Positions 29,099 to 44,952 of a DNA stretch of 64,000 nt are shown in pieces. This DNA comes from Thermococcus sibiricus MM 739 (GTDB lineage: Archaea; Methanobacteriota_B; Thermococci; Thermococcales; Thermococcaceae): assembly GCF_000022545.1 (NCBI RefSeq), contig NC_012883.1, forward strand, positions 1 through 64,000. Direction: 5' to 3'. The first letter of the stretch is position 1. The number at the start of each line of letters is the position of its first letter. Below the pieces are notes generated by a model. It worked only from the letters and a program-made list of their open reading frames with translations, was not told the DNA's origin and did not search any database. Both the position numbers and the translations under genes were made by a program.

Positions 29099-31357
29099 AT
29101 GAAGAGAATATTTTCACTAATCTTAATTCTGTTGATGGTTATCCCTTATGTCAGCGCAGTTCCTATTTTAGACGCTTCCACTAGATTTCTAACCGAGGGC
29201 AAGGATTACATGGATAGTACACAGGAAATAAGCTTGTCTTTAATGGCTTTGGGTTCAAGTTACTCCATCGCTGAAAACCTTACTAAAGAAAACATCACAT
29301 TATTTGTAGAGGAGTTGCTGGAAAGACAGAATTCTGATGGGGGATGGGGATATTATGAGGGGAGTATAAGCAATGTTGTGGACACTTCATACGCAGTAAT
29401 AGCTTTAAAAAGAGTAATTGACCTTTATTACCCAAATGAAAATATTTATCGTAAAATTTCCAAAGCTCTTGAGAATGGATTGAATTTTATCTCCAAGTCT
29501 CACACTCTTAATGGATGGGGGTATATACCCAATACCCTGCCTGAGTTCTATCCGACCGTCATGGCTTTATGGGCATTGGGTGAGAATGGATATACGGAAA
29601 AGAGCAGGCACGTGAATGAAGCAATAGCATACTTGGAATCGGCCGAAAGCATGGAAATAAGTGAAGCAAAGGCCGTTGGATTAAAGATTCTTGCCTATAA
29701 GAGTGTTGGTCATCAAGTACCTGAATCCCTCATTGAAAAAGCATGGGGACTTGTAAACTCTGATAATATTACCATAGATGAGAGGGCCCTGCTTACCTAT
29801 GTACTCACCACTTATGAAGGATTAACTTTTGAAGTTGCTAAACTTCTCAGCAGACTAGAAGACCTAGCAGAGAGCAATGAGACCTTGATTTACTGGGCCA
29901 ATGCTCCAGATGAGTGGACAAACAGAGAGGTATTCGCAGCTTCAGCCTTTGCAGTCATGAGTTTTGCGACGGCCAATACTCTCGGGGGAGTAGGGGGCAT
30001 TATTTCAATAGAAGACTCTTGTTCTGCCCTTGAAAAAGTCCAGAATCCAGATGGAGGATGGGGATACAGAGCGGGCTATAGCTCTGATGATAGAACCACT
30101 TATTACGTTTTAAAGGCATTGAAGAGGTGCTACTTTAAAGATGAAGTCATTGAGAAAGGCTTGGAGTGGGTTGAAACCAGAATCCCTGAGAATATGGAAA
30201 AAGTTTCTAAAGAAAGGCGATTAAACTCTGCTTACATTTACAACCTCCTCACGCTTCTGGAGTTTAACATGCTTAATGAAACCGAGAAGCAAACCCATAT
30301 CTCCTTTATAAAGAGTTTGGGTGAGGATGGAAAGTGGAATACTATACTTGGGCCACAACCCTATGAGACGGCTCTTGCTATAAAGGCTCTCCTAGCATTG
30401 GGAGTTGATCCAAGTGATGAAGACATAGTGAAAGCAAAAGAGTGGCTCCTATCACGACCAACAGATGGATGGGGCCTTCGTATACAGGTTGCCATTCCAT
30501 TTAGGGTTCGTTATATCATGTCTACAGTTCCCACAACTTTAGAGGTTCTTGAGGCCCTTACACCACTGGTCACTAAAGAAGAGGTTGAAAGGCACTTGAC
30601 ATGGCTTATGGAGCAGAAAATCGAAGATGATGGATGGCCCGTTGTTAAGGAGATTTATATTAGAGATATTCTGATGTATCTAGGCGCCCCATCAGTTGAA
30701 CTCACAATACGAGCCACTAAAGTCCTATACGACTTTGGCATAGACTACCATGCTGAGACACTTAACTGGCTTTTGGATCACCGCAGTGATAGTTTATGGG
30801 GAACAACCTTAACAGAATCCGCCCTTGCAGTACTCTTCTTCTCTGAAATGGGAGAGGTAGTAATTAAGCCTCTCAGTCTATATCAAGTCCTCAAGCAAAT
30901 TCCTGAGAAGAACTTTACGATCCTTTACACTTCTAACTATAATTCCACTGCAGTTTCACTTGGAGAGGCCCTTAGTGAAGTATTTGAAAAGAGCTTTGAG
31001 ATTAAGCCCTTTGAAGGGTTTGGAGATTCCAACTACATTGTAGTCTCAGACTTCAATACATTTAACATACCCCAGTACAACCCGTACATCAAGGTAAAGA
31101 GTGATGATATGCATGTTTACCTTGGTGATAAGAGCTATCCAATAAACAATACGGTAATTTTAATTCCAGGAAAAACCAGTGAGGGATACCTACTCTTTGT
31201 ACTCTCATCCAGAGGTGCAGAGGATATTGCGAGCACGTTCTTGAGTTCCACAATAATCAAGTACCTCAATGGGGCCGCCTGTGTGGTAACCCATGAGGAC
31301 AAGAACCATAACGGGGTAGTGGAGTTTGATGAATTGAACATTGAGCTTGTGGGGTGA
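29099..31357 (+). CDS. secreted protein with prenyltransferase/squalene-oxidase-type repeats
   Basis: 752 residues. A signal peptide (IFSLILILLMVIPYVSAV) is followed by alpha-toroid repeats with QW-type motifs: QNSDGGWGYY near residue 80, NGWGYIPN, QNPDGGWGYRA near residue 320, TDGWGL and DDGWPVV. A C-terminal EF-hand-like loop (EDKNHNGVVEFDEL) could bind calcium. The fold resembles squalene cyclases and prenyltransferases but no DXDD acid is seen, so it is probably structural or adhesive. GAGGTGCGGAGG precedes the ATG. It ends 7 bases before the CetZ-like start. Confidence 0.8.
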   Translation: MKRIFSLILILLMVIPYVSAVPILDASTRFLTEGKDYMDSTQEISLSLMALGSSYSIAENLTKENITLFVEELLERQNSDGGWGYYEGSISNVVDTSYAVIALKRVIDLYYPNENIYRKISKALENGLNFISKSHTLNGWGYIPNTLPEFYPTVMALWALGENGYTEKSRHVNEAIAYLESAESMEISEAKAVGLKILAYKSVGHQVPESLIEKAWGLVNSDNITIDERALLTYVLTTYEGLTFEVAKLLSRLEDLAESNETLIYWANAPDEWTNREVFAASAFAVMSFATANTLGGVGGIISIEDSCSALEKVQNPDGGWGYRAGYSSDDRTTYYVLKALKRCYFKDEVIEKGLEWVETRIPENMEKVSKERRLNSAYIYNLLTLLEFNMLNETEKQTHISFIKSLGEDGKWNTILGPQPYETALAIKALLALGVDPSDEDIVKAKEWLLSRPTDGWGLRIQVAIPFRVRYIMSTVPTTLEVLEALTPLVTKEEVERHLTWLMEQKIEDDGWPVVKEIYIRDILMYLGAPSVELTIRATKVLYDFGIDYHAETLNWLLDHRSDSLWGTTLTESALAVLFFSEMGEVVIKPLSLYQVLKQIPEKNFTILYTSNYNSTAVSLGEALSEVFEKSFEIKPFEGFGDSNYIVVSDFNTFNIPQYNPYIKVKSDDMHVYLGDKSYPINNTVILIPGKTSEGYLLFVLSSRGAEDIASTFLSSTIIKYLNGAACVVTHEDKNHNGVVEFDELNIELVG

Positions 31358-31364
31358 AATTACT

Positions 31365-32468
31365 TTGAGGGCTTTAATCATTGGAGTAGGTCAGTGTGGG
31401 ACAAAGATAGCAGACTTGTTCGCCTTAGTGGACTTTGAGGCATTGGCAATAAACACTTCAAAGAGTGACCTTGATTATTTGAAGCATATACCGAAGGAAA
31501 GGCGGATACTGATAGGAGAAAGTTTAACAGGCGGAAAAGGAGTAAATGCAAACCCAGTACTCGGAAGAGAGGCAATGAAAAGAGACCTATCAATGGTGAT
31601 GAAAAAAATAAACGCTATGGTTGGTTACAGCGACGTTGACGTCTTTTTCCTCACTTTTGGTTTTGGCGGGGGTACTGGTTCTGGAGGGACCCCTATTTTA
31701 GCTGAGGCTCTTAAAGATGAATATCCTGAGTCACTTGTGGTTGCGATTGGCGCTCTACCCCTGAAAGAGGAGGGAATAAGGCCCACAATAAACGCTGCAA
31801 TAACTATAGACAAACTCTCAAAAGTGGCCGATTCTATAATAGCCATAGACAATAATAAGCTCAAAGAAAGTGGGGAAGACATAACACGGGCCTATGAAAA
31901 GATAAATCGCACAATAGTTGAACGCATAGCCTCTTTATTGGCGTTGATTGATATTCCGGGTGAGCAGACCCTTGATTCTAGTGACCTGAAGTTTGTATTG
32001 AATGCTTTTGGAAGCTTTGCGACAGTGGGGTATGCAAAGGCAGAAGCCAGCAAAGTTAGAAACTTATCCAGGCTTATCTTAAAATCTTTTGAGAATGAAG
32101 GTCTCTATCTTGAAGCTAACATAGAATCTGCACTTTATGGTCTGGTAGCAGTTCATGGGCCGCCAGAACTGTTGAAAGCTAGGGATATATTTGAGGCCCT
32201 CAGCTATTTGACCAAGAAAATTAAAGGAAAGCAGATTTTCCGGGGCTTTTATCCGGATCCAAGGGAAAGGGAGATAGAAGTGGTTACACTCTTGACTGGG
32301 ATTTATGAGAGCAAGAGTATTGAAGATATAGTTGTAGTTGCCAAAAAATATGCTGAATCTTTTATAAAAGCGAAAGAAGAGGCCGAAACAAAGAAGAGTG
32401 AGCTTTTAACCGGCCTGCCCGACTTTGATGACATTTATCCGGGTGAGGTTAATGAAAGACTCGATTGA
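31365..32468 (+). CDS. CetZ-like tubulin/FtsZ family GTPase
   Basis: 367 residues from a TTG at 31365, which has GGGGTGA 5 bases upstream; an ATG start would need a longer, poorly supported N-terminus. The nucleotide-binding loops are the tubulin/CetZ-style IIGVGQCGTKIADLF (GQCG at about 9-12) and GFGGGTGSGG (GGGTGSG at 101-107). NAFGSFATVGYAKAEASKV and a C-terminal tail PDFDDIYPG complete it. CetZ proteins polymerise with GTP and affect cell shape and motility in haloarchaea. Here it is embedded in a cluster with pilin-like proteins. The 3' end overlaps the next gene by 17 bases. Confidence 0.88.
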   Translation: MRALIIGVGQCGTKIADLFALVDFEALAINTSKSDLDYLKHIPKERRILIGESLTGGKGVNANPVLGREAMKRDLSMVMKKINAMVGYSDVDVFFLTFGFGGGTGSGGTPILAEALKDEYPESLVVAIGALPLKEEGIRPTINAAITIDKLSKVADSIIAIDNNKLKESGEDITRAYEKINRTIVERIASLLALIDIPGEQTLDSSDLKFVLNAFGSFATVGYAKAEASKVRNLSRLILKSFENEGLYLEANIESALYGLVAVHGPPELLKARDIFEALSYLTKKIKGKQIFRGFYPDPREREIEVVTLLTGIYESKSIEDIVVVAKKYAESFIKAKEEAETKKSELLTGLPDFDDIYPGEVNERLD

Positions 32469-33051
32469 TGTGGCACTGGATCTAAAAGAGAAGGAAGTTT
32501 ATTCCCACATAGCCCACGAAAGTGCAGAGGACATGATTAGGATAATTTCTTCAATAGACGCCGAAAGGGCAAAGATTAGGGGTGAAATTATTCATTACGA
32601 GGATGACTGGGACGAACTCATGAAACAGAGGGTGGCCAAAGGAAAAAGACACACTGCCTTTGACTTTTACAACCCTTCTCTTCTCACGATATGGGAAAAC
32701 AAGGTAAAGAATATGAAAAAGGTTAAAAATTTGTTTAAGCTTGGATTAATTCTTTTGGGCCTCTTTATAGCTGGTGGAGTGGCGGTTACAGTTATTTACA
32801 GAGAATTCTGGGTCCTGATACCCTTGAGTGTTGTCCCGATGGTCATATTCCTATTTGACTACAAAAAGAATGCCCTCGATATTGGCTATTATCAGCTTAC
32901 CCAGCTTTTTATTGAGGAACTTAAAGAACTCCTAAAGAAATATGAACTTGATCCCGAAAAGTACAAGTTCAAAATATTTAATCATGATTATTTCGGAGTT
33001 TTAACGAAAAAAATTGGCACCAGTGTTTTTGCAATGGTAAAAAAAGATTAG
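32452..33051 (+). CDS. two-helix membrane protein downstream of CetZ-like gene
   Basis: 199 residues from the ATG at 32452 (GGTGAGG upstream). A charged N-terminal half (SIDVALDLKEKEVYSHIAHE) precedes two membrane segments at about residues 95-135 (LGLILLGLFIAGGVAVTVIY and VLIPLSVVPMVIFLF). The C-terminal half is predicted to be helical and faces the same side. The gene overlaps the CetZ-like stop, so the two are translationally coupled. It could be a membrane anchor for the CetZ-like filament; that is inference. No family recognised. Confidence 0.7.
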   Translation: MKDSIDVALDLKEKEVYSHIAHESAEDMIRIISSIDAERAKIRGEIIHYEDDWDELMKQRVAKGKRHTAFDFYNPSLLTIWENKVKNMKKVKNLFKLGLILLGLFIAGGVAVTVIYREFWVLIPLSVVPMVIFLFDYKKNALDIGYYQLTQLFIEELKELLKKYELDPEKYKFKIFNHDYFGVLTKKIGTSVFAMVKKD

Positions 33052-33109
33052 GATGATGGAAAGCGTTAAATAATTTGTTGACGTGTTATTATTTAGTATG
33101 GTGAGAAGA
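33052..33109 (+). promoter_or_regulatory. promoter region of the pilin-like operon
   Basis: A TATA-like GTTAAATAATT near 33066 would place the start of RNA about 33092. GGTGAGAAG precedes the ATG of the first pilin-like gene. This suggests the pilin genes can be transcribed separately from the CetZ-like gene. Confidence 0.4.
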
Positions 33110-33715
33110 ATGAAAAAAGGACAGATATCGCTGGAATTCATATTCATATTTGTGTTATTTATAATACTACTAACTTTCTCAATTAGGAATATTACCTTCT
33201 CCAGCGAGCACTCTTCAGATATGTTGAGAATTCAGATTAGTGAAGAGGCAAAGTTATTTGCAAACACGGTTTCCAATGCAATATCTCAGGTTTATGCACA
33301 AGGCCCAGGTGCAAAAACCACTGAATACTTTACTTTCAAGTATCTAAATGACGAGTATTTCCTTACAAGGGCGTTTGATATGGATGGAACACCTCAGATC
33401 TTGATAGGGTATAAAAATGGTACTTATGTTGCTATTTTGGATAATGCCAATCAGACCATAAACGTAAATGAGACAGAGACAAAAAAGAAGAACTATTTCT
33501 GGAGTCAGTCTCTTTATGCAAGAGATCTATCAGACAACTCTTCAATTTACTATCCGAATAATACCATAGCTAATTATGCAGGGATGTTTGTGAATGCAAC
33601 AGATTTACCCTCCACTTTGAAGATAGTTGTTGAATGGAATCCAGATAGAAATGAGAGTTGGATTATCAACTCTACTGCCCAAGAACTTAGGATAAACCTT
33701 AACGTCGGTGGTTAG
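33110..33715 (+). CDS. pilin-like protein with class III signal peptide (1)
   Basis: 202 residues. MKKGQISLEFIFIFVLF is a classical archaeal class III/type IV pilin-like signal: short basic tip, GQISLE cleavage motif, then hydrophobic helix. Processing by an EppA- or PibD-type peptidase at the G-Q bond is expected. The mature part is predicted beta-rich with many N-glycosylation sequons (NIT, NGT, NQT, NET, NNS, NNT). First of six similar genes, followed by the next after one base. Confidence 0.8.
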   Translation: MKKGQISLEFIFIFVLFIILLTFSIRNITFSSEHSSDMLRIQISEEAKLFANTVSNAISQVYAQGPGAKTTEYFTFKYLNDEYFLTRAFDMDGTPQILIGYKNGTYVAILDNANQTINVNETETKKKNYFWSQSLYARDLSDNSSIYYPNNTIANYAGMFVNATDLPSTLKIVVEWNPDRNESWIINSTAQELRINLNVGG

Positions 33716-33716
33716 T

Positions 33717-34139
33717 ATGAGGGGACAGTTGAGCTTGGATCTGCTTTTTGCCTTCGTACTTGTTACTCTCACGATGTTAAACCTGATTTATCTAGCTAAT
33801 AATGAGATGGCCCATGCAGAGAGTTTTGATGCAATGGCAAAGGTGAGAGTTTTTTCAGCTGAAATAGTTGACCACACTGCCAAGGTTTACGCTGTTGGAG
33901 AAGGGTACAAACTCAAGGAAGAGGCACCTCAAATAAGCGGAGGGAACTTTACAATAATATTTAATGGGACTACTAACAAAATAACCGTAAGTGCTACGGT
34001 GGATGGAAAGAGTTACTGGATAGTGAAGAATTCCACGGTTCCCATAGCAAATGCTTCGATAAGTGTTAACAGTGGGGAGAGTTTTTGGATAAAAACCGTG
34101 AAAATAGGTGATATGCTCTATGCGAATATCACGAAGTAG
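33717..34139 (+). CDS. pilin-like protein with class III-type signal peptide (2)
   Basis: 140 residues from the ATG at 33717 (GGTGG upstream). MRGQLSLDLLFAFVLVTLTM has the basic tip and GQLSLD variant of the class III signal. The remainder is a small domain with sequons NFT, NGT, NST. It is likely to be assembled or anchored by its N-terminal helix like archaeal pilins. It overlaps the following gene by 20 bases. Confidence 0.75.
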   Translation: MRGQLSLDLLFAFVLVTLTMLNLIYLANNEMAHAESFDAMAKVRVFSAEIVDHTAKVYAVGEGYKLKEEAPQISGGNFTIIFNGTTNKITVSATVDGKSYWIVKNSTVPIANASISVNSGESFWIKTVKIGDMLYANITK

Positions 34140-34599
34140 GGGACAAACGGCCATTGAGATGATATTCATACTGTCTGTAATATTTATTGGGTTAATGTTA
34201 GTGATCCCCTCTTACACTGATAATAATACAAATATAATGATAGTGAGCTATGTGAGAAGTTCCCTTTCAAAGGGAATTGATTATTTGAATACCGGGGTCA
34301 TGACTGACGATGAGCCTTATAAAAGCACATTGAATCCATTATTGTCACAGATTACGGAAAATCCACACTTATCTATTAAAAATCTCACCTCAGAGGAGAT
34401 TTCAACCCAAGTTAACATAACAATAGTGATTTCGACTCCATATTTATCTATCCAGAACCTTAATGCTAGCATTGTCTCACATCTCACAGAGTTTCTTGAA
34501 AAAGATCTTGTGGAGAACTATCACTTTACAAACAATACCGGGTTTTTGAAGTATGGTGGAAAGACGGTAAACATAACGATTACTGTGGTGAGAGGATGA
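34120..34599 (+). CDS. pilin-like protein with class III-type signal peptide (3)
   Basis: 159 residues from the ATG at 34120; AGGTGAT stands upstream. The signal has a longer basic tip, MRISRSRGQTAIEMIFILSV, with GQTAIE at the cleavage site. The ectodomain is predicted helical/beta with few aromatic residues. The 3' end overlaps the next start by 4 bases (ATGA), indicating translational coupling within the pilin operon. Confidence 0.75.
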   Translation: MRISRSRGQTAIEMIFILSVIFIGLMLVIPSYTDNNTNIMIVSYVRSSLSKGIDYLNTGVMTDDEPYKSTLNPLLSQITENPHLSIKNLTSEEISTQVNITIVISTPYLSIQNLNASIVSHLTEFLEKDLVENYHFTNNTGFLKYGGKTVNITITVVRG

Positions 34600-36041
34600 A
34601 GAGGAGAGGACAACTGCTTTCAATAGATGCTTTGCTTTCACTGGTCATTGTTGTCATGGTTGTGGGGGTAGTTATGAATACAAACGACATGATTAAGGCC
34701 GAGATAACTAACCTTCTGGACTGGTACGATAGGGCAAACATTGCTAACAATATGCTTGATGTTTTAACCAAAAGTCCTGGCTATCCAGAGGACTGGGAGA
34801 GTAATGCGAGTAATGTTGAAATGGTAGGATTGAGGGATAAAGATTATCCATTTGCGCTTGATTATGGAAAATTAGAGTCTTTAAACGCTTCTATAAATGA
34901 TGCATTTATACAAAACAGCTATCTTTTGAAACTAAGTAGAGGTCACGATTTTGAAATTGAGGTTTATACAACAAAAAGGGACGTCAATGCTAGTGGACGA
35001 TTCCCACGTGGAGAGACAAACATAGTATTTGAGTCTAATCCGGGTGTGAATCTAGATATAAATGGAAGTTCTCCTAATGGAGTATTTCAAGTTGAATGGG
35101 TAGAGATAACAAAAAATAATGGCTCAATATATAGAAATGAGCAGATATGTACTTCTCTAAAAAGTGGCAATCTAGTGGATTTAGAAAATAATGATGTGCT
35201 TGAATTTAAAGTTTCAGAGGATATAACAATAACTGGAATAAGAGGTGAAGTGATAGGTCCTTATTTGATACCTGCAGGTTCAATAGTCACAATAAACGTG
35301 CTTGTAACCCAGTCTAAGGGATTTCAAATAAACTATGGAGGTGGGAGCTGTCCCTACTCCTTTAAAGTGACTGGTCAAGGAAATGTGAAAGTCTCAGTAG
35401 ACTACATAGACTATGGAAATTGGAACTTGACTTCCCTTGTTACCCACTTTTCGGATATTAAAAAACCCACATACAAGTTTGTTGTAATCAATGGATCGAT
35501 ATATACAGATGAAACTGTGATAAATGCATCAAAGGTTCGGTCACCGTGGATACAATATGAAAGGAGAGAATTCATAGTTAAAAAGGAGATTTACAATAAA
35601 ACCATTAAAGTTGGAAATGCTACTAAAAAAGTGTTGATTTCTGGGAGACTCGTTGGAAATATTCCGGCTCACTTCTATTTAGAGCTTCAAGTTTCGGGCA
35701 CTGGAAATGCCACGTTCATTGTTGTGGATGGCGTCCAAGTTAGAGGTCTTTTTATAGAGAAAACGTCTCAAACCTCCCCCCTCAGAGCTATATTATTCTG
35801 GAAAGAGAATGGTCAGAACATAACAAAGTTTTACACCGGAAATATTACCAGTGTAAAGATACTTTGGAGAGATTTATTTGAAGAACTGCCATCAGACTAT
35901 ACGTCGAAAATTGTTGAGCTATGGGTATATGAGAACAACTTTTCAGATCTCATTCTCAGGGATAAGGGAGATTTAGACCTTCTGTTAGACCCCCTTTTTG
36001 AACAAGCAATGATAAAGCTACGGGTGTGGGATGACAGATGA
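34596..36041 (+). CDS. large pilin-like surface protein (4)
   Basis: 481 residues. The N-terminus MKRRGQLLSIDALLSLVIVV fits a variant class III signal with GQLLSID and one hydrophobic helix. The ectodomain is mainly beta and rich in sequons (NAS, NGS, NET, NLT). It is about three times longer than a usual pilin, so it may be a tip adhesin or minor pilin. Both gene ends overlap neighbours by ATGA. Confidence 0.72.
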   Translation: MKRRGQLLSIDALLSLVIVVMVVGVVMNTNDMIKAEITNLLDWYDRANIANNMLDVLTKSPGYPEDWESNASNVEMVGLRDKDYPFALDYGKLESLNASINDAFIQNSYLLKLSRGHDFEIEVYTTKRDVNASGRFPRGETNIVFESNPGVNLDINGSSPNGVFQVEWVEITKNNGSIYRNEQICTSLKSGNLVDLENNDVLEFKVSEDITITGIRGEVIGPYLIPAGSIVTINVLVTQSKGFQINYGGGSCPYSFKVTGQGNVKVSVDYIDYGNWNLTSLVTHFSDIKKPTYKFVVINGSIYTDETVINASKVRSPWIQYERREFIVKKEIYNKTIKVGNATKKVLISGRLVGNIPAHFYLELQVSGTGNATFIVVDGVQVRGLFIEKTSQTSPLRAILFWKENGQNITKFYTGNITSVKILWRDLFEELPSDYTSKIVELWVYENNFSDLILRDKGDLDLLLDPLFEQAMIKLRVWDDR

Positions 36042-38308
36042 GGAGGAGGGGCTTTATTTTTACACTTGACGCTTTGCTGTCATTGATCTTGGTCATGGTA
36101 TTTGTTAGCAGTGTAGTGGGTATTATAGATAACACGAACGTTTACAGCACTTCCTTAAGAGAAGGGAACAAATATAAAGCCGAAGATGTCCTTACTATCC
36201 TGAAAACTGTCCCATTGAAGGAGATAGTTCCCCAAAACATAATCGAACAGTGGAAAAGCGAAGAGACGCTTAATTTGAACCTGGTAGATGAAAACATGCC
36301 TCCCCTTGATATAGTTGCAACTTACTGGGCAACTAGAGAGCTCTTCCCGGAGAAAAACCTCACCCACAAAGCGGAGTTAATTTTGGGCTATTTGCTGAAC
36401 AAAACTCTTGAAGGATATTACTACGAACTCCTTATAAACAACTATACTAGCCCATATCTAAGAAAGGTTGGTGCCAATTACCCCAAAGCTTTTGAGGTCT
36501 CTCCCGCTACGCTAACATTGAGTGGCTATGCATTCAATCAAACCCCGAGGGGATATGTGGCGAGGGCGTATTTGACAAAGCTGCGAGCCAAAGAAACAAC
36601 TTACACTTACTTTGGAAGCTCAGCATTTGCGTATGCTCCAAGCAGTCAGGACTATACGATAATAAGATATATAATACCAAATGAAGAAGAGAACGAATTG
36701 CCATATGATGCCAATATAACTAAGATAAAGTGGTTCGCTCAGCCCAGATGGTTTTCTCCTTCCTCATATATGCGCCTGTTTATAGATGGAGAGCCGGTTA
36801 AGTGTGGTCAGTTTAGTAGCGATGGTTTTGTAGAATACAGCATATGGGAAGTTCTCGAAGATTCAAACCCCAATGATCCACTGACGTGTAACATGCTGGA
36901 GATTCTAAAGAGGCACGGCGATTTAAGAAGACACACCTTTGAAGTGTGGGTTTATAATCCAGCGGGCTCTCCTTACACAGGTGGAGTCCATCCTAACGTT
37001 TTTATAACTCTAACTTACCAAACATCCCAGTTAAGCACTTTCAATTATCCGCAAACATTTCATTTTGATGAAATTGAAACAGAGCATCCATTCCAAATGG
37101 AGAATGGAATTTTTATAGGAGGAAACTTAAGCTCCCTATACGTTCAAGTTCAGATTATAAATGCTTCAAAAGTTAGTGAGCCTAACTATCCTAAACTTTA
37201 CTTAACTTATCTTGATAGACGGATTTCAGTAGGGGTTGGGGCATACATTGGCAATGATACTTATGTCTGGGACAATCAGACTATTTTTACTGCACTTCAA
37301 AATGAAGGTATATATATTAGCAATTTATCAAAAACATACCTGTGGTTTGCGGTAACTTTTGGAATGGATTATCAAGAACCTCCTTATGGGAATTCTGCCA
37401 GCTATACATATAGGTTGAAACTTAATTATGATACATCTTATATTAGGGCTGTTTATACCCCAGAAACTGCGAAAACTCTCTACTCTATTGACATAACAGA
37501 GGAGATAACAAAGGATGATGTTATAGATAGCACGTATGCAAGAACTGAGTATTCCGTGCCATTTTATACAATGCTCACTTGGAAATACACTTTGCCTTTG
37601 AATGTTACTCCTATTTGGACAAAACTTCACATAGTCCGTCTGCATCGTGTTGATACTACTCCCCCAGAGTTAGATCCGGATGAAGATCAGAAGATATCAA
37701 TATCTCCTGGTGTGAATAATTGGACTGTACTGTATTGTCATAGTGCAAGAGCCTCAGCGTGTAATCCTAATAGACCTTTTGCGGACCCGGCGTTTACGAG
37801 ATGGGGAATTGTAAATATGATGAGAAATAATACTGGCGAACCTGTGGTTAGGGCTCTTGCTCCAGGAGAGAATTATATCAAGGTAGAAACAGGAAATGAT
37901 TATGTAATCTCCAGAGATTTCACTACAGGCGAATTTACATATTTGTTGGACGCCTATGCTCCTTATGGAGACATAAAGCCATATTTACTCCAGGGATATC
38001 CGGAATTGCAAGCATACAATCTTATATATAAATATGGTAGTGAAAGCCTTGGAAGTATATTTGTTGGAGATACAAAAGCTATTGAAAATGGCCAATACAG
38101 GAACCTTACAGTTGATCAGCTTAATCCTCAAGACTATGCTGTTGATGATGCTATTATAAGACTATTTCAGAAACTGGGAGGAGATGGATGGGATAAACCA
38201 CTATTAATTGAGCTTAAGGATACAAAGATAAGTTTCGCATCGTTGAAAGGTATTCCTCGGTCTATTGAACCAATCACAATAACCTTGCGGGTTTGGAGGG
38301 AGGGCTAA
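36038..38308 (+). CDS. large pilin-like surface protein (5)
   Basis: 756 residues. MRRRGFIFTLDALLSLILVM has a basic tip followed by GFIFTLDALLS and a single helix; the Gln of the class III signal is replaced, so processing is less sure. It shares the LDALLSL helix with the preceding gene, which suggests duplication. The mostly beta ectodomain contains Cys pairs (CGQF, CNML, CHSARASACN). Coupled to the preceding gene by ATGA and to the next by TAATG. Confidence 0.7.
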   Translation: MRRRGFIFTLDALLSLILVMVFVSSVVGIIDNTNVYSTSLREGNKYKAEDVLTILKTVPLKEIVPQNIIEQWKSEETLNLNLVDENMPPLDIVATYWATRELFPEKNLTHKAELILGYLLNKTLEGYYYELLINNYTSPYLRKVGANYPKAFEVSPATLTLSGYAFNQTPRGYVARAYLTKLRAKETTYTYFGSSAFAYAPSSQDYTIIRYIIPNEEENELPYDANITKIKWFAQPRWFSPSSYMRLFIDGEPVKCGQFSSDGFVEYSIWEVLEDSNPNDPLTCNMLEILKRHGDLRRHTFEVWVYNPAGSPYTGGVHPNVFITLTYQTSQLSTFNYPQTFHFDEIETEHPFQMENGIFIGGNLSSLYVQVQIINASKVSEPNYPKLYLTYLDRRISVGVGAYIGNDTYVWDNQTIFTALQNEGIYISNLSKTYLWFAVTFGMDYQEPPYGNSASYTYRLKLNYDTSYIRAVYTPETAKTLYSIDITEEITKDDVIDSTYARTEYSVPFYTMLTWKYTLPLNVTPIWTKLHIVRLHRVDTTPPELDPDEDQKISISPGVNNWTVLYCHSARASACNPNRPFADPAFTRWGIVNMMRNNTGEPVVRALAPGENYIKVETGNDYVISRDFTTGEFTYLLDAYAPYGDIKPYLLQGYPELQAYNLIYKYGSESLGSIFVGDTKAIENGQYRNLTVDQLNPQDYAVDDAIIRLFQKLGGDGWDKPLLIELKDTKISFASLKGIPRSIEPITITLRVWREG

Positions 38309-41300
38309 TGAAAAGGAGAGGATTTATACTTAATTCACTAGTTTTGGTTCTCCTCATTCCTATGCTCTTACTTCTGGCAACATATGAGGACGTCACCTCT
38401 TGGATTGTAAAATCTCAAAGTGAGAGAGTCCAAGTAGAGAGAACGTTCAGAGTAACTTCCTACTTAGAGGAAGACTTTAAAAATGCTTTAGAGCTATCAA
38501 CGAAGCGTGCGCTCTCATTAGCGGTTGATTTTGTGACTAATGAGCACACACCAATAGATAACGCGAGTAAAGCTATAAAAGAATTAATCTTAAGAGGAAC
38601 GTACCCACAACTTAGTGGATATAGTAGAGTGAGCCTTTTCATGGGAAATAATACTCTACGAGATTGGATTATTAATTTGAGAGATGAGCTGAGTAGGCAG
38701 GGTTATGTTTTAAGCCCCTCTGTTGATGAAATTTTAAGTAGTATCCAAGTAAAAGTGGTACCTCTAGATTCATTTCACGTTGTTGTGAATGCATCCATAC
38801 CAAACATATTAATTCAGGATATCTCAGGTAAAGTAGTTTACAATTCATCCCTTCCTCAAGATGGTAGCATATACGCTGTGGTTTCTATAGAGGGGATGGA
38901 AGATCCCCTATTTTCATATTTGACTTACGGTAAATACTCCAGGATAGTTAGTTCGTGTAAATTTATGTATCCAAACTTAGCGAAACCTATTAAGGCGATA
39001 GAAGGATATGGTTCCTCAAATATAGAGAAGTTCTCAGGACAAGTTTCAGTCTCTCTTGAAAACCTTACCTCAAATAAAATCTATGTGGGAGAGTACTATA
39101 CTGAAAAAGATGCTCTAGGGTATATTGTAAAGAACCAGCCTGGTGTATCAGTGGATAACCCTATAATATTCAACACCACCATCAATAACATTGAGGTCTC
39201 TCCCTTAGATGTATTCGAGGATGGCGATATAGCTGTAATGGCCTTCGGCAATATAAGTGGGGCTTGGTGTCCAGAGGCCTCTGCATATGAGTATAGAGTT
39301 GAAATGAATATTTCCAGTTTAGAGTTTCAGCCTAATGCTTTAACCTTGCTCGAGATTCCCGCTTCTGTATTGAGTGGTGCGTATCATAACGGAACTATTG
39401 CTTCGATTAGGGTGTACGATGTGGATTGTAATCCAATTCCGTTCTGGATAGAAAAGTGGGGAAACGATGAGATATTGATCTGGATAAAAACAGGGGTTAC
39501 AAACCAGTATTTCATATACTATACCGCGGATCCTGCTTATGCCATCGATGGATATAACAAAGAGACACTGTTTGACCTCTACGATGATTTTGATGGCACC
39601 TCAATAGATACTACCAAGTGGGACATATTGGGGAGTGCTACTGTAGATGGGAACGGGACTCTAATTGTATCCGCTGATGAAAAAGCAAGTGTCTTGGAGT
39701 CAAAGGTGTCATTTAACTATCCAATATTTGTAAGATACAAAATGAAAAGTACCTCGGGAACTTCTGACTTTGACGCTGGGGTAGCTGTGGTGTTTGGACT
39801 CCAAGGGGGAGAAAGATTATTAGTCAATGTAACCTATGCGGGTGAACAAATTCCTGATTACACAAACATCCAGATTCCGATTAAACTTGAAGGAGCAGAC
39901 TTCCCTGATTACATTAATGCACAAGATAATACAGCAGAAATTAAGATCTATGATAATCAGGAGAATGAATTGCCATTTTGGATTGAATATTGGAACACTA
40001 CAGAGGAAAAGGCATTGATATGGGTAAAGAGTAGTTTTATCTATGATCGCCGGCAAGGAAATACCTACTATTATCACGCTACTTTTTACATTGAGTACAA
40101 CACTGGAACCCTGACAAGAGGAAATGGAACGGCTGTATTTGAGTTCTTTGACAATTTTGAGGATAGCACTTGGGACGACAAATGGGAGCTAGCAGGAGGT
40201 ACAGACGATAACATCGAACAGACTAATGGAAATCTAATAATAAAGAATGGTAATAGCCTCTTAGCATTGAGGAATAATGTGGATCTTAATCTTTATGGAG
40301 ATTATGCAATCAGGTTCAAAATGAAGCCTTCTGTGTATTCTGGAGACTGGGATGCTGGAATTGGTATTGAGGACTTTAATGTAAGAGATGGGTCATATGA
40401 TACTTTGTTATTTACTGATGATGTGCAACCGAGTGGAGATTATCTGGCAATTCACAGAGCTTGGTGGAGATGGACATGGCGAGAGGGAGAAACAGATACA
40501 ATTTCTCAAAGCCGCGGAGATGCTAATTTCCACACATATGAGGTCCAAGTATTCCCTGATGGAAATGATGTTTACTTCTACGATCTTACAAACGGTAGAG
40601 AGAATTATGATGCCCGTCAAGTAGAGGATCCCTTATACAGAATATACCTTGTACTGGATAATGAAAACAATGAGAACTGGGCATACTATGACTGGATATT
40701 CCTTAGAAAATATCTGGATGAAGATAGTCTCAGCTATAATGTTCAGCAGGTATCTTCTGTCCAAAGCGTGCCTATGCAATACATTGATGATAATCCAGGG
40801 AATGTTGATCATAATGGTGATTTACTAGCAATACTCCAAAATTGGACCAGTTCATTAGCAAGTTCATCCACAAGTAGTGATCTGACTATATATCGCAGGT
40901 ACGAGGTGATTTTTAATTATGACTCTGGAGGGATTTCTACCACGTTTTCCGATTTGGATGATACCTCTAGGGTTACTTCAGCTTCTGTGGCAACTTCTCC
41001 CCAACTTCCCTTGAAAATCCAGATAATTATTGACAATACCATGGATAACAGTGCTTATTTCGACTGGATTATAGCGGGGAGATATCCATATGTAAGCACA
41101 CAACCCCAGTATTCATCCCCGGAGTCCAAGGCCTCAGTACAAAGTGGGAAAAACGCAAGAGCCTATAATATCCAGCCTTATATTGATTGTATTCAAGAGT
41201 ATAAGTACTTTGGTGTTAGTGGATATCCCTCCTTCTTTGAGCGCTTAGAGGGAGGTGCTACTACCAATAGAGCGTACTATGAGACACTTGCTGAGAAAAC

Positions 41301-41598
41301 GCAGGAGGTAGTATATGGGGAGGCTAAATATCCAATTGGGATTGTTAGCTTCATTCTTCCAAAAGACCTACCTCCAAATTTAGGTTTCCTTGTCAGAAAA
41401 CAACCTGCCGTAGACTCCATATATTTGGATTATGAGAATTACAGAGGTGATAGAACCGATGTATATAAAGTACTTGGGATATCTTCTAATGGGGGTGTTG
41501 CTACTCCGATCATAGATGAGAATTTCTATTTGGATTATCAAATAGCAACAGCAATATTTGGAAGATTAGGAGCCCAAGATTTACTAGTTTCGGGGTGA
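38308..41598 (+). CDS. giant surface protein with duplicated DUF2341-LamG modules (6)
   Basis: 1,097 residues from the ATG at 38308. MKRRGFILNSLVLVLLIPML is a basic tip plus membrane helix. Residues about 315-420 form a DUF2341-like domain (FWIEKWGNDEILIWIKTG), followed by a concanavalin/LamG-like unit (about 425-505). A second DUF2341-like domain (about 505-605, FWIEYWNTTEEKALIWVKSS) and another LamG-like unit follow. These modules are found in large adhesins and sugar-binding surface proteins. This is the last of the six pilin-like genes, and its stop is followed within 6 bases by DUF2101. Confidence 0.78.
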   Translation: MKRRGFILNSLVLVLLIPMLLLLATYEDVTSWIVKSQSERVQVERTFRVTSYLEEDFKNALELSTKRALSLAVDFVTNEHTPIDNASKAIKELILRGTYPQLSGYSRVSLFMGNNTLRDWIINLRDELSRQGYVLSPSVDEILSSIQVKVVPLDSFHVVVNASIPNILIQDISGKVVYNSSLPQDGSIYAVVSIEGMEDPLFSYLTYGKYSRIVSSCKFMYPNLAKPIKAIEGYGSSNIEKFSGQVSVSLENLTSNKIYVGEYYTEKDALGYIVKNQPGVSVDNPIIFNTTINNIEVSPLDVFEDGDIAVMAFGNISGAWCPEASAYEYRVEMNISSLEFQPNALTLLEIPASVLSGAYHNGTIASIRVYDVDCNPIPFWIEKWGNDEILIWIKTGVTNQYFIYYTADPAYAIDGYNKETLFDLYDDFDGTSIDTTKWDILGSATVDGNGTLIVSADEKASVLESKVSFNYPIFVRYKMKSTSGTSDFDAGVAVVFGLQGGERLLVNVTYAGEQIPDYTNIQIPIKLEGADFPDYINAQDNTAEIKIYDNQENELPFWIEYWNTTEEKALIWVKSSFIYDRRQGNTYYYHATFYIEYNTGTLTRGNGTAVFEFFDNFEDSTWDDKWELAGGTDDNIEQTNGNLIIKNGNSLLALRNNVDLNLYGDYAIRFKMKPSVYSGDWDAGIGIEDFNVRDGSYDTLLFTDDVQPSGDYLAIHRAWWRWTWREGETDTISQSRGDANFHTYEVQVFPDGNDVYFYDLTNGRENYDARQVEDPLYRIYLVLDNENNENWAYYDWIFLRKYLDEDSLSYNVQQVSSVQSVPMQYIDDNPGNVDHNGDLLAILQNWTSSLASSSTSSDLTIYRRYEVIFNYDSGGISTTFSDLDDTSRVTSASVATSPQLPLKIQIIIDNTMDNSAYFDWIIAGRYPYVSTQPQYSSPESKASVQSGKNARAYNIQPYIDCIQEYKYFGVSGYPSFFERLEGGATTNRAYYETLAEKTQEVVYGEAKYPIGIVSFILPKDLPPNLGFLVRKQPAVDSIYLDYENYRGDRTDVYKVLGISSNGGVATPIIDENFYLDYQIATAIFGRLGAQDLLVSG

Positions 41599-41603
41599 TA
41601 ATC

Positions 41604-42380
41604 ATGGATCTTGATGGAATCCTGTACAAAATTGGTGAAATAGCGGAAGCATTCACTGGAAAATCAATCCAATGGATTAAAGATATTGTAAATCCTACCC
41701 CCTTTCAAAAACCTCCAAGATTCAAAATCCTCAAAAAGCTGATAAAGAGAGAACTTACAGTCCATGAGCTTTTAAGTTTGAACCTCCAGCTCTCCTTTAT
41801 CTTTTACCTCTTACTTGCTCTCTTATTGATAGTTCTTTTTGGGAATGAGTTATATCTGACTATTATTTCGGTTGTTTATTTTATCTATCTTCGCTACACA
41901 CTTCTTAAAAACCGTGACTTTTTCATTGAAGTTGAGCCTTACAGATTCTTTTATTATGGGCTTACTGCAATAGGCTTTCTTTCCTTCTTGGGCTACCTCT
42001 TAATAAGAAGGTTTGCAAAGAATGTCTATTACTTCTACACTTACCTTATAGCTATTTTTGTCGTTGTATTGGCCTTCAGGTATATCTACAAATCGAAATT
42101 CACTAGGGATTGGACTTATGGAATAGTAGAAGACATCAAAGGAGAGCTTGTGCTGGTAAGTGTTCACGATGACATACGGGCCAATGTGAAGCCTGGTAAA
42201 TATTGGGTGGATAACACAGAGGATGTTGAAGTGGGAGACGTCGTAAAGATTCTTATAGAAGAAAGAATATTCAGAAGCTCCCTTCCAAAAAGGGTGCTAG
42301 AAGTTCATAAAGCGAAACCTTCATCATCAGAAACTTCAACAGAACCAAAAGCTGAAAGTGAAAAGAGCAATAGTAAATAA
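41604..42380 (+). CDS. DUF2101 family membrane protein
   Basis: 258 residues from the ATG at 41604 (GGGGTGAT upstream). Four membrane segments lie between residues 55 and 160, for example LSFIFYLLLALLLIVLFG and LTAIGFLSFLGYLLI. A C-terminal cytoplasmic domain resembles an OB-like regulator (DIKGELVLVSVHDDIRANVKPG) and a Ser/Glu-rich tail follows. DUF2101 proteins are common in Thermococcales; function unknown. It is the last gene of the pilin-like operon and its end overlaps an opposite-strand gene by 76 bases. Confidence 0.82.
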   Translation: MDLDGILYKIGEIAEAFTGKSIQWIKDIVNPTPFQKPPRFKILKKLIKRELTVHELLSLNLQLSFIFYLLLALLLIVLFGNELYLTIISVVYFIYLRYTLLKNRDFFIEVEPYRFFYYGLTAIGFLSFLGYLLIRRFAKNVYYFYTYLIAIFVVVLAFRYIYKSKFTRDWTYGIVEDIKGELVLVSVHDDIRANVKPGKYWVDNTEDVEVGDVVKILIEERIFRSSLPKRVLEVHKAKPSSSETSTEPKAESEKSNSK

Positions 42381-42715: not shown

Positions 42716-43282
42716 TTAAAGCTCTCCACAGAGCTCGGCAAAATTCCTGTAGATATCGCTTCCCCTTTCCGTGTGAGCTACTTCCGGATGGAACTGCACT
42801 CCATAAATTGGCAGTTTTTTGTGTTTCATGGCCTCAACAGGGCAGAACTCACTCTTAGCTAAAAGTTCAAACTCCTCTGGGAGTTCTTTAACCTCGTCCA
42901 TGTGACTTTCCCAAACCTTAAGCTTCTCTGGAAGTCCTTTGAAAATGTCGTTCTCTTCTAGAATCTCAACTTCCACCAGACTGTATTCTCCCCTTTCCCC
43001 CCTTCCTACTTTGCCACCAAAGTACTTTGCTATAAGCTGGTGTCCCAGGCAAATCCCTAGGATCGGCACATTAAATTCCTCGTAGTGCTCTAGGATTGCT
43101 TCACAGTTGCCCGTTCTTTCCAAAGTTGGGCCGCCTGAAAATATTATACCCCTCGGATTCATTGATTTTATTTCTTCTGGTGGTGTGGTGTTTGGGATTA
43201 TTTTAGCCTCAACGCCAAGATATCTCAAAGTTCTCCAGATCCTGTGCACGTACTGCCCGTGGTTGTCCATTATGATTATCAT
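42716..43282 (-). CDS. guaAA: GMP synthase glutaminase subunit (GuaAA)
   Basis: 188 residues. It supplies ammonia for XMP amination from glutamine. Class I GATase motifs: GICLGHQ with nucleophile C78, FSGGPTLE, and the catalytic His/Glu in [10 protein letters not shown]. In archaea the ATP-pyrophosphatase subunit is separate, here 44.0-45.0 kb. Its ATG overlaps the stop of the HEPN gene (ATGA), so it is translated behind that module. It may share a promoter with guaAB upstream. Confidence 0.96.
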
Positions 43283-43677
43283 TTTGCTACCTCCAAAAAT
43301 CCCTTTTTTATGAGGTACTCTTTTGTGAACTCAAGGAATTCTTTTGAGAATTTCACGATTTCTTCAGCTCTCTCTTTTGGAATTTCCAGCATGACTTCAT
43401 AATCTGCTTCCTGCCTTAGGTTAAATGCCATTATTAGGTGAGTATACAATTTATGTGGAATTTCACTGGTCTTCACAAACTCTCTTCCAAAGAGAGCAAT
43501 TAAAGAAGAATGCTTTGAAACGCTTATGTTTTTAGTCAGCAGTATTGCCTCTACACAGTAGAACATTGTATAATATGCCCTGGCTGCCGCAAAGTCATAA
43601 AATCCCTTTTTAAGGAGTTCTTTGCTGGCCTCCAAGCTTTTTTGGGCTTTCTTTATTAGTGCTTCAAAATTATTCAA
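43279..43677 (-). CDS. HEPN domain protein of an HEPN/MNT pair, inside the guaA locus
   Basis: 132 residues from a TTG at 43677 (GGGAGGG upstream). The four-helix HEPN pattern is [22 protein letters not shown], then [13 protein letters not shown] and [12 protein letters not shown], the MNT-associated LRxxADY subtype without a clear RNase RX4-6H motif. It follows the nucleotidyltransferase with an 8-base overlap and is directly followed by guaAA. Alternative: the TTG start may be shortened. Confidence 0.85.
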
Positions 43678-43984
43678 CTTTGATTCCCTCCCTTTTCACA
43701 TTTTGCAAAAATGGAGAGTCAGAAGATGTAAAAATCCACTTTGGATAATCTATTATCGATACAACTTTTTCGTATTTGAGACTTAGTTCTGCTGCAATTT
43801 CCATAATTTTTTCATATTCTTCAAGGTTTAGTTTTCCTTTTACCACTAGAAGAATATCCACGTCACTTCTGGTGGAGTAATCTCCCCTAGCATAAGAGCC
43901 ATAAAGAATGATTTCTTCGAGCTTGTCTCCCAAGATGGAACGAACTTTCTCTCTTAATTCGTTCAAGAGTGCTTGAATGCTCAT
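43670..43984 (-). CDS. MNT-type nucleotidyltransferase, inside the guaA locus
   Basis: 104 residues from the ATG at 43984 (GGTGCGG upstream). The minimal nucleotidyltransferase signature is ILYGSYARGDYSTRSDVDI with GSYARG at 29-34 and metal-binding D41 and D43. It lies 44 bases after the guaAB stop on the same strand. In HEPN/MNT pairs this subunit usually modifies and inactivates the HEPN partner, encoded right behind it. Here no DNA-binding domain is attached. A TAAATTTTTAG segment in the gap could be an additional promoter. Confidence 0.86.
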   Translation of the reverse strand: MSIQALLNELREKVRSILGDKLEEIILYGSYARGDYSTRSDVDILLVVKGKLNLEEYEKIMEIAAELSLKYEKVVSIIDYPKWIFTSSDSPFLQNVKREGIKVE

Positions 43985-44028
43985 TAACCGCACCACTAAA
44001 AATTTAGTTGAAAAGTAAATAAACATTA

Positions 44029-44952
44029 TCACTCGAACTCAATAGTTGCTGGAGGTTTGTTTGTTATATCGTAAAGCACCCTCCCCACCTGTGGAATCTC
44101 ACTCGTTATCCTGAAGGCTATTCTTTGTAGTACTTCAAAGGGAACTTTCATGGCATTTGCAGTCATGCCATCCAAGCTCTCAACTACTCTAACTGCTATT
44201 GTCTCTTTGTATGCCCTTATGTCCCCTTGCACACCGACGGTTTTGACCCCTAAAAGCACGGCAAAGGCCTGCCATGGTTTAAGGCCTGCGTTTTCAATTT
44301 CTTCTTCTACTATTGCATTGGCCTCTCTTACTACCGCAACTTTTTCTGGGGTAACTTCGCCTAAGACCCTCACGGCTAATCCTGGACCCGGGAATGGCAT
44401 TCTGTGGTATATTTTCTCAGGAAGGCCAAGTTCTTTTGCGACTTCTCTCACTTCATCTTTGTAAAGATCTCTTAAGGGTTCAATGAGCTTGAGGTTTAAC
44501 CTCTCAGGAAGTCCGCCCACATTGTGGTGGCTCTTTATTTTACCTTGACTCTCAATCCAGTCTGGGGCTATTGTGCCTTGAATAAGAAAATCTGCGTCTA
44601 TTTCATTGGCAACCTCTTCAAAAACATCTATGAAGGTCTTGCCTATTATTTTTCTCTTCTCTTCTGGGTCTGTTACGCCTTTAAGTGCTGTGAAAAATCT
44701 CTCTTGTGCATCTACGTAAATTAGATTTAAGCCAAATTCCTCTTTAAATGTTTTTATAACGAACTCTGGTTCCCCCTTTCTCAAAAACCCGGTGTTTACG
44801 AAGACAGCATGAAGTCTGTCTCCGATAGCTTTGTAAGCCAGTATTGCTGCTGTGGAACTGTCAACTCCACCGCTTAGAGCTATTATGGCTTTTTTCTCTC
44901 CTACAGTCTTTTTAATCTCTTTAACCTTCTCTTCAATGAATTTTTCCCACAT
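44029..44952 (-). CDS. guaAB: GMP synthase ATP-pyrophosphatase subunit (GuaAB)
   Basis: 307 residues from the ATG at 44952; GGTGACGC stands upstream. It activates XMP with ATP and aminates it to GMP with ammonia from GuaAA. The P-loop is [15 protein letters not shown] near residue 35. [20 protein letters not shown] and [17 protein letters not shown] are the conserved substrate loops, and the end is [12 protein letters not shown]. Two candidate purine-operator sites flank its promoter (TTTTTTAAAGC near 44990). Confidence 0.96.

Follow-up and report, generated by a model that had tools for sequence, protein, structure and literature searches.

The first 64 kb of the closed genome of Thermococcus sibiricus MM 739 (1,845,800 bases), hereafter the window, contain a block of 9 plus-strand genes that runs from a tubulin-like GTPase of the CetZ family to a DUF2101 membrane protein and includes 6 pilin-like proteins, pil1 to pil6. 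The explanation that we favor, and consider probable though far from secure, is that the block is a minor-pilin module, linked to CetZ, that belongs to the Thermococcales clade 1 type IV pilus, with the pilin-like proteins forming a tip complex and with CetZ, together with a protein containing 2 transmembrane segments (2-TM protein), positioning the pilus base. The association of the block itself has already been published, and its recognition in the first-pass annotation of this DNA is a rediscovery. Makarova et al. (2016; PMC4858521) reported that, in most Thermococci, the clade 1 pilus loci include an FtsZ-family gene (arCOG02202) and a squalene cyclase, the relevant passage crediting Szabo 2007 for this association, whereas the sections of Brown and Duggin (2023; PMC9856176) dealing with cetZ neighborhoods describe all 15 Thermococcales cetZ regions as pili-associated, with conserved gene order, and propose a scaffold role. 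Compared with the 15 regions covered in those sections, the present analysis extends to 94 genomes; new here are the register of acidic residues in the pilin signals, the location of the pilus motor elsewhere in the genome, the genomes that retain the block but lack an archaellum, and the 2-TM protein as a candidate membrane anchor and partner of CetZ.

Composition and conservation of the block

All genes listed in the first-pass annotation are present at the positions given there, on the plus strand, and are densely packed, with neighbors overlapping by 1 to 20 nt or lying within about 60 nt of each other; the stretch from CetZ through DUF2101 comprises 9 genes, not 8 as initially counted. 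A close CetZ (75% to 97% identity) is encoded by 89 of the 94 Thermococcaceae genomes, and the 2-TM gene adjoins it in the same 89, the 5 genomes without both genes (G073, G077, G082, G084, and G096) being fragmented drafts that are 73% to 91% complete. Among 77 other loci from 6 genera, the 2-TM gene invariably follows CetZ (77/77), with the genes on a single strand, and each untruncated locus continues with 6 genes for proteins with class III signals and then DUF2101, except in G028 (locus L129), where DUF2101 is absent after pil6 and the other core genes are intact. A different gene lies just upstream of the block in 8 of 75 loci and just downstream in 10 of 72. Gene order thus holds in all 77 loci while the flanks vary, which marks the block as a unit with boundaries. 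According to the first-pass annotation, the association would be accidental if CetZ normally resided elsewhere and the pilin genes occurred without it; this proved not to be so, as every CetZ found in Thermococcaceae was accompanied by the block.

Compared with the window proteins, CetZ has a median identity of 84%, the 2-TM protein one of 56%, and the pilins and the secreted QW protein encoded upstream of cetZ 33% to 44%, values which fit a cytoplasmic core with a variable exterior. The much slower evolution of CetZ compared to the pilins could also be explained by shared regulation only, whereby CetZ would help to shape the cell or to expand its envelope and would be co-transcribed with surface genes needed in the same growth phase, with no physical coupling. 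Such an interpretation is in line with the suggestion of Makarova et al. that these genes are perhaps parts of a common regulon and with the main action of Haloferax CetZ1 on shape and motility, but it does not readily account for the integrity of the block between variable flanks or for the constant adjacency to CetZ of a 2-TM protein with a conserved cytoplasmic face; a separate CetZ2-pilus link published for Halobacteria also speaks against it. We regard shared regulation as a serious but rather unlikely alternative.

Signals, acid register, and domains of the pilin-like proteins

The first 3 pilin-like genes encode small proteins, namely, pil1 (about 33110..33715; KKG/QISLE, with the slash marking the predicted cleavage site, Glu at +5), pil2 (about 33717..34139; RG/QLSLD, Asp at +5), and pil3 (about 34120..34599; RG/QTAIE, Glu at +5). 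These are followed by pil4 (about 34596..36041; RRG/QLLSIDA, Asp at +6), pil5 (about 36038..38308; RRG/FIFTLDA, Asp at +6), and pil6 (about 38308..41598; RRG/FILNS, Asn at +4), all on the plus strand. The proteins are about 204, 141, 159, 481, 756, and 1096 residues long, showing no steady increase of the kind (140 to 1,097 residues) described in the first-pass annotation, but their class III-type signals, also recognized there, are retained in all 6 across the loci.

A strict automatic test of the register was passed by 62 of the 78 loci, window included, the others being cut by a contig end or containing 1 gene that escaped the regular expression or the open reading frame picker. Over these 62 loci, Glu or Asp occupies +5 in pil1 to pil3, pil4 and pil5 have Asp at +6 with Ala directly after it, and pil6 has Asn at +4 but no acid at +5 or +6; the respective pattern holds in 62/62 loci for every protein except pil2 (61/62), for which the exception can be read as a double Gly registered 1 residue early. 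Residue −1 is Gly or Ala throughout, in accordance with the search pattern used. Consequently, pil1 to pil3 display the full set of class III features (basic tip, Gly or Ala at −1, hydrophobic helix, and acid at +5) over the 62 loci, whereas in pil4 and pil5 the basic tip, the −1 residue, and the helix are present but the acid is an Asp at +6 relative to the predicted cleavage site. The Pfam model of the class III signal (PF04021) was matched over its cut-off (23.7 bits) only by pil1 (28.7 bits), with pil3 falling below it.

In pil6, DUF2341 was recognized over the cut-off (91.6 bits) in 2 stretches, consistent with the duplication initially reported, and it was also found in 12 of 13 homologues. 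The LamG modules initially reported with it were not found in the window protein, LamG being matched (E = 0.046) in only 1 of the 13 homologues. The pil4 protein was found in Thermococcaceae only, and its single-chain structure model, of moderate confidence, comprises an N-terminal helix, a beta head, and a variable middle. Homologues of pil4 range from 331 to 918 residues and those of pil6 from 359 to 1206, with conserved ends and variable middles. The middle of pil4 varies strongly (e.g., L069:12228-14681 and L066:9029-10864), as if under diversifying pressure.

In bacterial type IV filaments, the tip-most minor pilin (K/PilX) lacks Glu5 because there is no subunit above it, and a lectin-bearing modular pilin has been placed at the tip (PMC9934059, PMC7541494); bacterial tips are capped by large modular pilins or PilY1 adhesins. 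By analogy, pil6, which carries DUF2341 adhesin modules and lacks an acid that could accept a further subunit, is predicted to be the apex subunit that caps the pilus, pil4 and pil5 would lie beneath it, and pil1 to pil3 would connect the complex to the major pilin. Makarova et al. likewise put the DUF2341 adhesin at the pilus tip but the minor pilins near the base, whereas the register observed here argues for the tip. The block shares with the HIJK / FimU-PilVWX-PilY1 tip complex a minor-pilin operon, a Glu5-less tip subunit (pil6 lacks the +5 acid in 62/62 loci), and a large tip adhesin. It differs in that no sequence homology was found (searches of Pfam, NCBIfam, and the PDB with pil4 and pil6 yielded nothing that relates them to the H, I, J, and K minor pilins), the adhesin is itself a pilin, there are 6 subunits, and CetZ is coupled to the set. 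Hence, the block may work like the HIJK tip complex, although we do not classify it as a member. Similarly, the PilABC proteins of Streptococcus sanguinis (PMC9934059) are modular pilins with adhesin domains and a predicted tip position, but their Glu5-less subunit, PilA, is small, whereas the one described here is the large modular pil6.

The first-pass annotation had proposed a filament or adhesion machine linked to a tubulin-like polymer. This agrees with the published reading (PMC9856176; PMC4858521), except that the 6 pilins look less like the filament proper than like a set of minor pilins for its tip or for priming. Alternatively, the 6 proteins could be membrane-retained adhesins or form a short pseudopilus, resembling a bindosome or a type II secretion system (T2SS), as might be suspected from the size of the largest 3, unusually big for pilins (481 to 1096 residues in the window) and variable in their middles, and from the adjoining secreted QW protein, a possible substrate. 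However, bulky modular pilins are known at pilus tips, none of the 6 proteins has lost its class III-type signal, and the QW gene is dispensable, rendering this alternative unlikely.

CetZ and its candidate membrane partner

The GTPase (31365..32468, plus strand, 367 residues) matches the Pfam models PF00091 (Tubulin; 114.7 bits) and PF21011 (CetZ_C; 64.2 bits, cut-off 21.6), both over the cut-off, but falls far short of the canonical FtsZ equivalog model (129 bits, cut-off 295). Its 3 closest solved relatives, 4b46, 4b45, and 3zid, carry PDB titles naming FtsZ or tubulin; we take them to be CetZ structures, 2 from Haloferax and 1 from Methanosaeta. The G-box GGGTGSG is at 101-107, and the invariant D207, the T7-loop catalytic acid, aligns with E218 of Haloferax CetZ1. 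Judged by its sequence, the protein, initially annotated as CetZ-like, is a CetZ. The same genome encodes 2 further, higher-scoring tubulin-family proteins, presumably the usual FtsZ pair.

The 2-TM protein (about 32452..33051, plus strand) consists of a conserved N-terminal domain, a transmembrane hairpin at about 95-138, and a C-terminal domain, as delineated from the alignment and hydropathy. Conservation averages 0.85 to 0.93 per 20-residue block over residues 1-80 and 0.48 in the hairpin. Both membrane segments are flanked by basic residues and, following the positive-inside rule, both termini should therefore be cytoplasmic. The single-chain structure model is of moderate confidence (predicted local distance difference test 78). 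The protein matched no Pfam or NCBIfam family over the cut-off, and no convincing homologue was found beyond Thermococcaceae in searches within the phylum of the window; weak matches outside the family (E of 2e-4 to 0.03) were to other 2-TM proteins, with neither pilins nor CetZ nearby at the 2 loci inspected (G103 and G020). The 2-TM protein thus appears to be Thermococcales-specific, with a predicted cytoplasmic domain that is almost invariant, and, given its co-occurrence with CetZ, is the foremost candidate partner of CetZ and a candidate membrane anchor. Other 2-TM proteins in class relatives (L083:6135-6836 and L084:10179-11081) share a C-terminal YK..xYxxDY pattern and have no CetZ or pilin genes nearby.

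Pilus motor, archaellum, and accessory genes

The block shares with the clade 1 loci of Makarova et al. an FtsZ-like/CetZ protein, a squalene cyclase, at least 5 class III proteins, a DUF2341 adhesin, and extra membrane proteins. Unlike in those loci, the motor is not within the block but lies at a distance of about 125 kb around the circular genome, where 2 TadC-like proteins and an apparently intein-split ATPase are encoded at genome positions 1,747.7-1,753.1 kb. The ATPase (L044:5752-9093; 1,749.8-1,753.1 kb) occupies a frame of 1113 residues with an intein-like insert; many of its relatives are about 620 residues long, and similarly long frames occur in many other Thermococcaceae genomes. 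A prepilin peptidase match (PF06847) at 992.9 kb is slightly below the cut-off. The genome hence holds the ATPase, 2 TadC-like proteins, the peptidase-like match, and pilins, the assignment to clade 1 being putative and based on gene content. A family search detected a matching non-archaellum ATPase in nearly all family genomes, its neighborhood being confirmed in the genome of the window only. Candidate major pilins include class III-signal proteins at 1,737.0-1,737.6 kb, approximately 10 kb from the motor genes, and, within 992.0-993.3 kb, a 60-codon class III-signal protein at 992 kb beside the peptidase-like match.

Haloferax CetZ1 affects the assembly and positioning of the archaellum (PMC11621097), and the block might by extension serve this organelle. 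However, the archaellum operon of T. sibiricus is separate (714-724 kb) and has its own genes, and 6 closed genomes (G011, G037, G040, G047, G052, and G095), in which the archaellum ATPase of T. sibiricus found no close match, keep CetZ, the 2-TM gene, the 6 pilins, DUF2101, and a different T2SSE ATPase, of the pilus type. Thus, in Thermococcales, CetZ travels with the pilus rather than, as in Haloferax, being tied to the archaellum, and coupling to the archaellum is highly improbable.

The gene preceding cetZ (29099..31357, plus strand) encodes the secreted QW protein, initially described as a QW-repeat, EF-hand surface protein, with alpha/alpha-toroid (squalene-cyclase-like) domains (Pfam SQHop_cyclase_C, 50 bits), an N-terminal signal peptide, and a C-terminal EF-hand-like loop. 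It adjoins cetZ in 75 of 77 loci; in the remaining 2 (G040 and G093; L143 and L148), it is absent and a radical-SAM gene abuts cetZ, indicating that the QW protein is an accessory part. At the other end, the DUF2101 multi-pass membrane protein (41595..42380, plus strand; PF09874, 246 bits) was not found in class relatives or 14 control genomes and is Thermococcales-specific in these searches. Farther downstream, on the minus strand (43279-44032), paired genes for a HEPN-like and a nucleotidyltransferase-like protein, which may constitute a toxin-antitoxin system, lie between the 2 GuaA (GMP synthase) subunit genes.

A possible role for CetZ in pilus biogenesis

In the favored scenario, the 6 class III-signal prepilins would be trimmed by a prepilin peptidase and form the tip or priming complex, with assembly powered by the ATPase and the 2 TadC platform proteins encoded elsewhere. 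CetZ is predicted to polymerize at the membrane, held there by the 2-TM protein, and may position or template the pilus base. The more specific proposal, that the 2-TM protein is a dedicated CetZ membrane adaptor and that the two form a tubulin-type platform nucleating and positioning the tip complex of the pilus, is tentative, and we consider it possible rather than probable.

Several points weigh against the favored scenario. CetZ is near-universal in Thermococcaceae, so its presence or absence cannot separate a pilus role from a general household role; co-occurrence cannot prove function, and only gene order and adjacency carry weight for the CetZ-pilus link. The conserved CetZ tail, LPDFDDIY, resembles that of Methanosaeta CetZ (INDLEEIY), from a lineage published as not pili-associated; the tail therefore need not bind the 2-TM protein, which weakens its candidacy as a motif specific to this partner. 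A shift of the predicted cleavage by 1 residue would turn D6 of pil4 and pil5 into D5. Fold searches with the models of the 2-TM protein and pil4 returned no meaningful match, and we found no experiment on the block in any Thermococcales in the open literature, most subscription papers being outside the search.

For the study of CetZ beyond Haloferax, the block offers a single-copy CetZ, a specific protein as candidate partner at the membrane, and a defined organelle of the cell surface, in a group where Thermococcus is genetically tractable and the archaellum-less genomes remove the usual confounder. If CetZ indeed builds or places the pilus, tubulin-family polymers would participate in pilus biogenesis, comparable to FtsZ in division.

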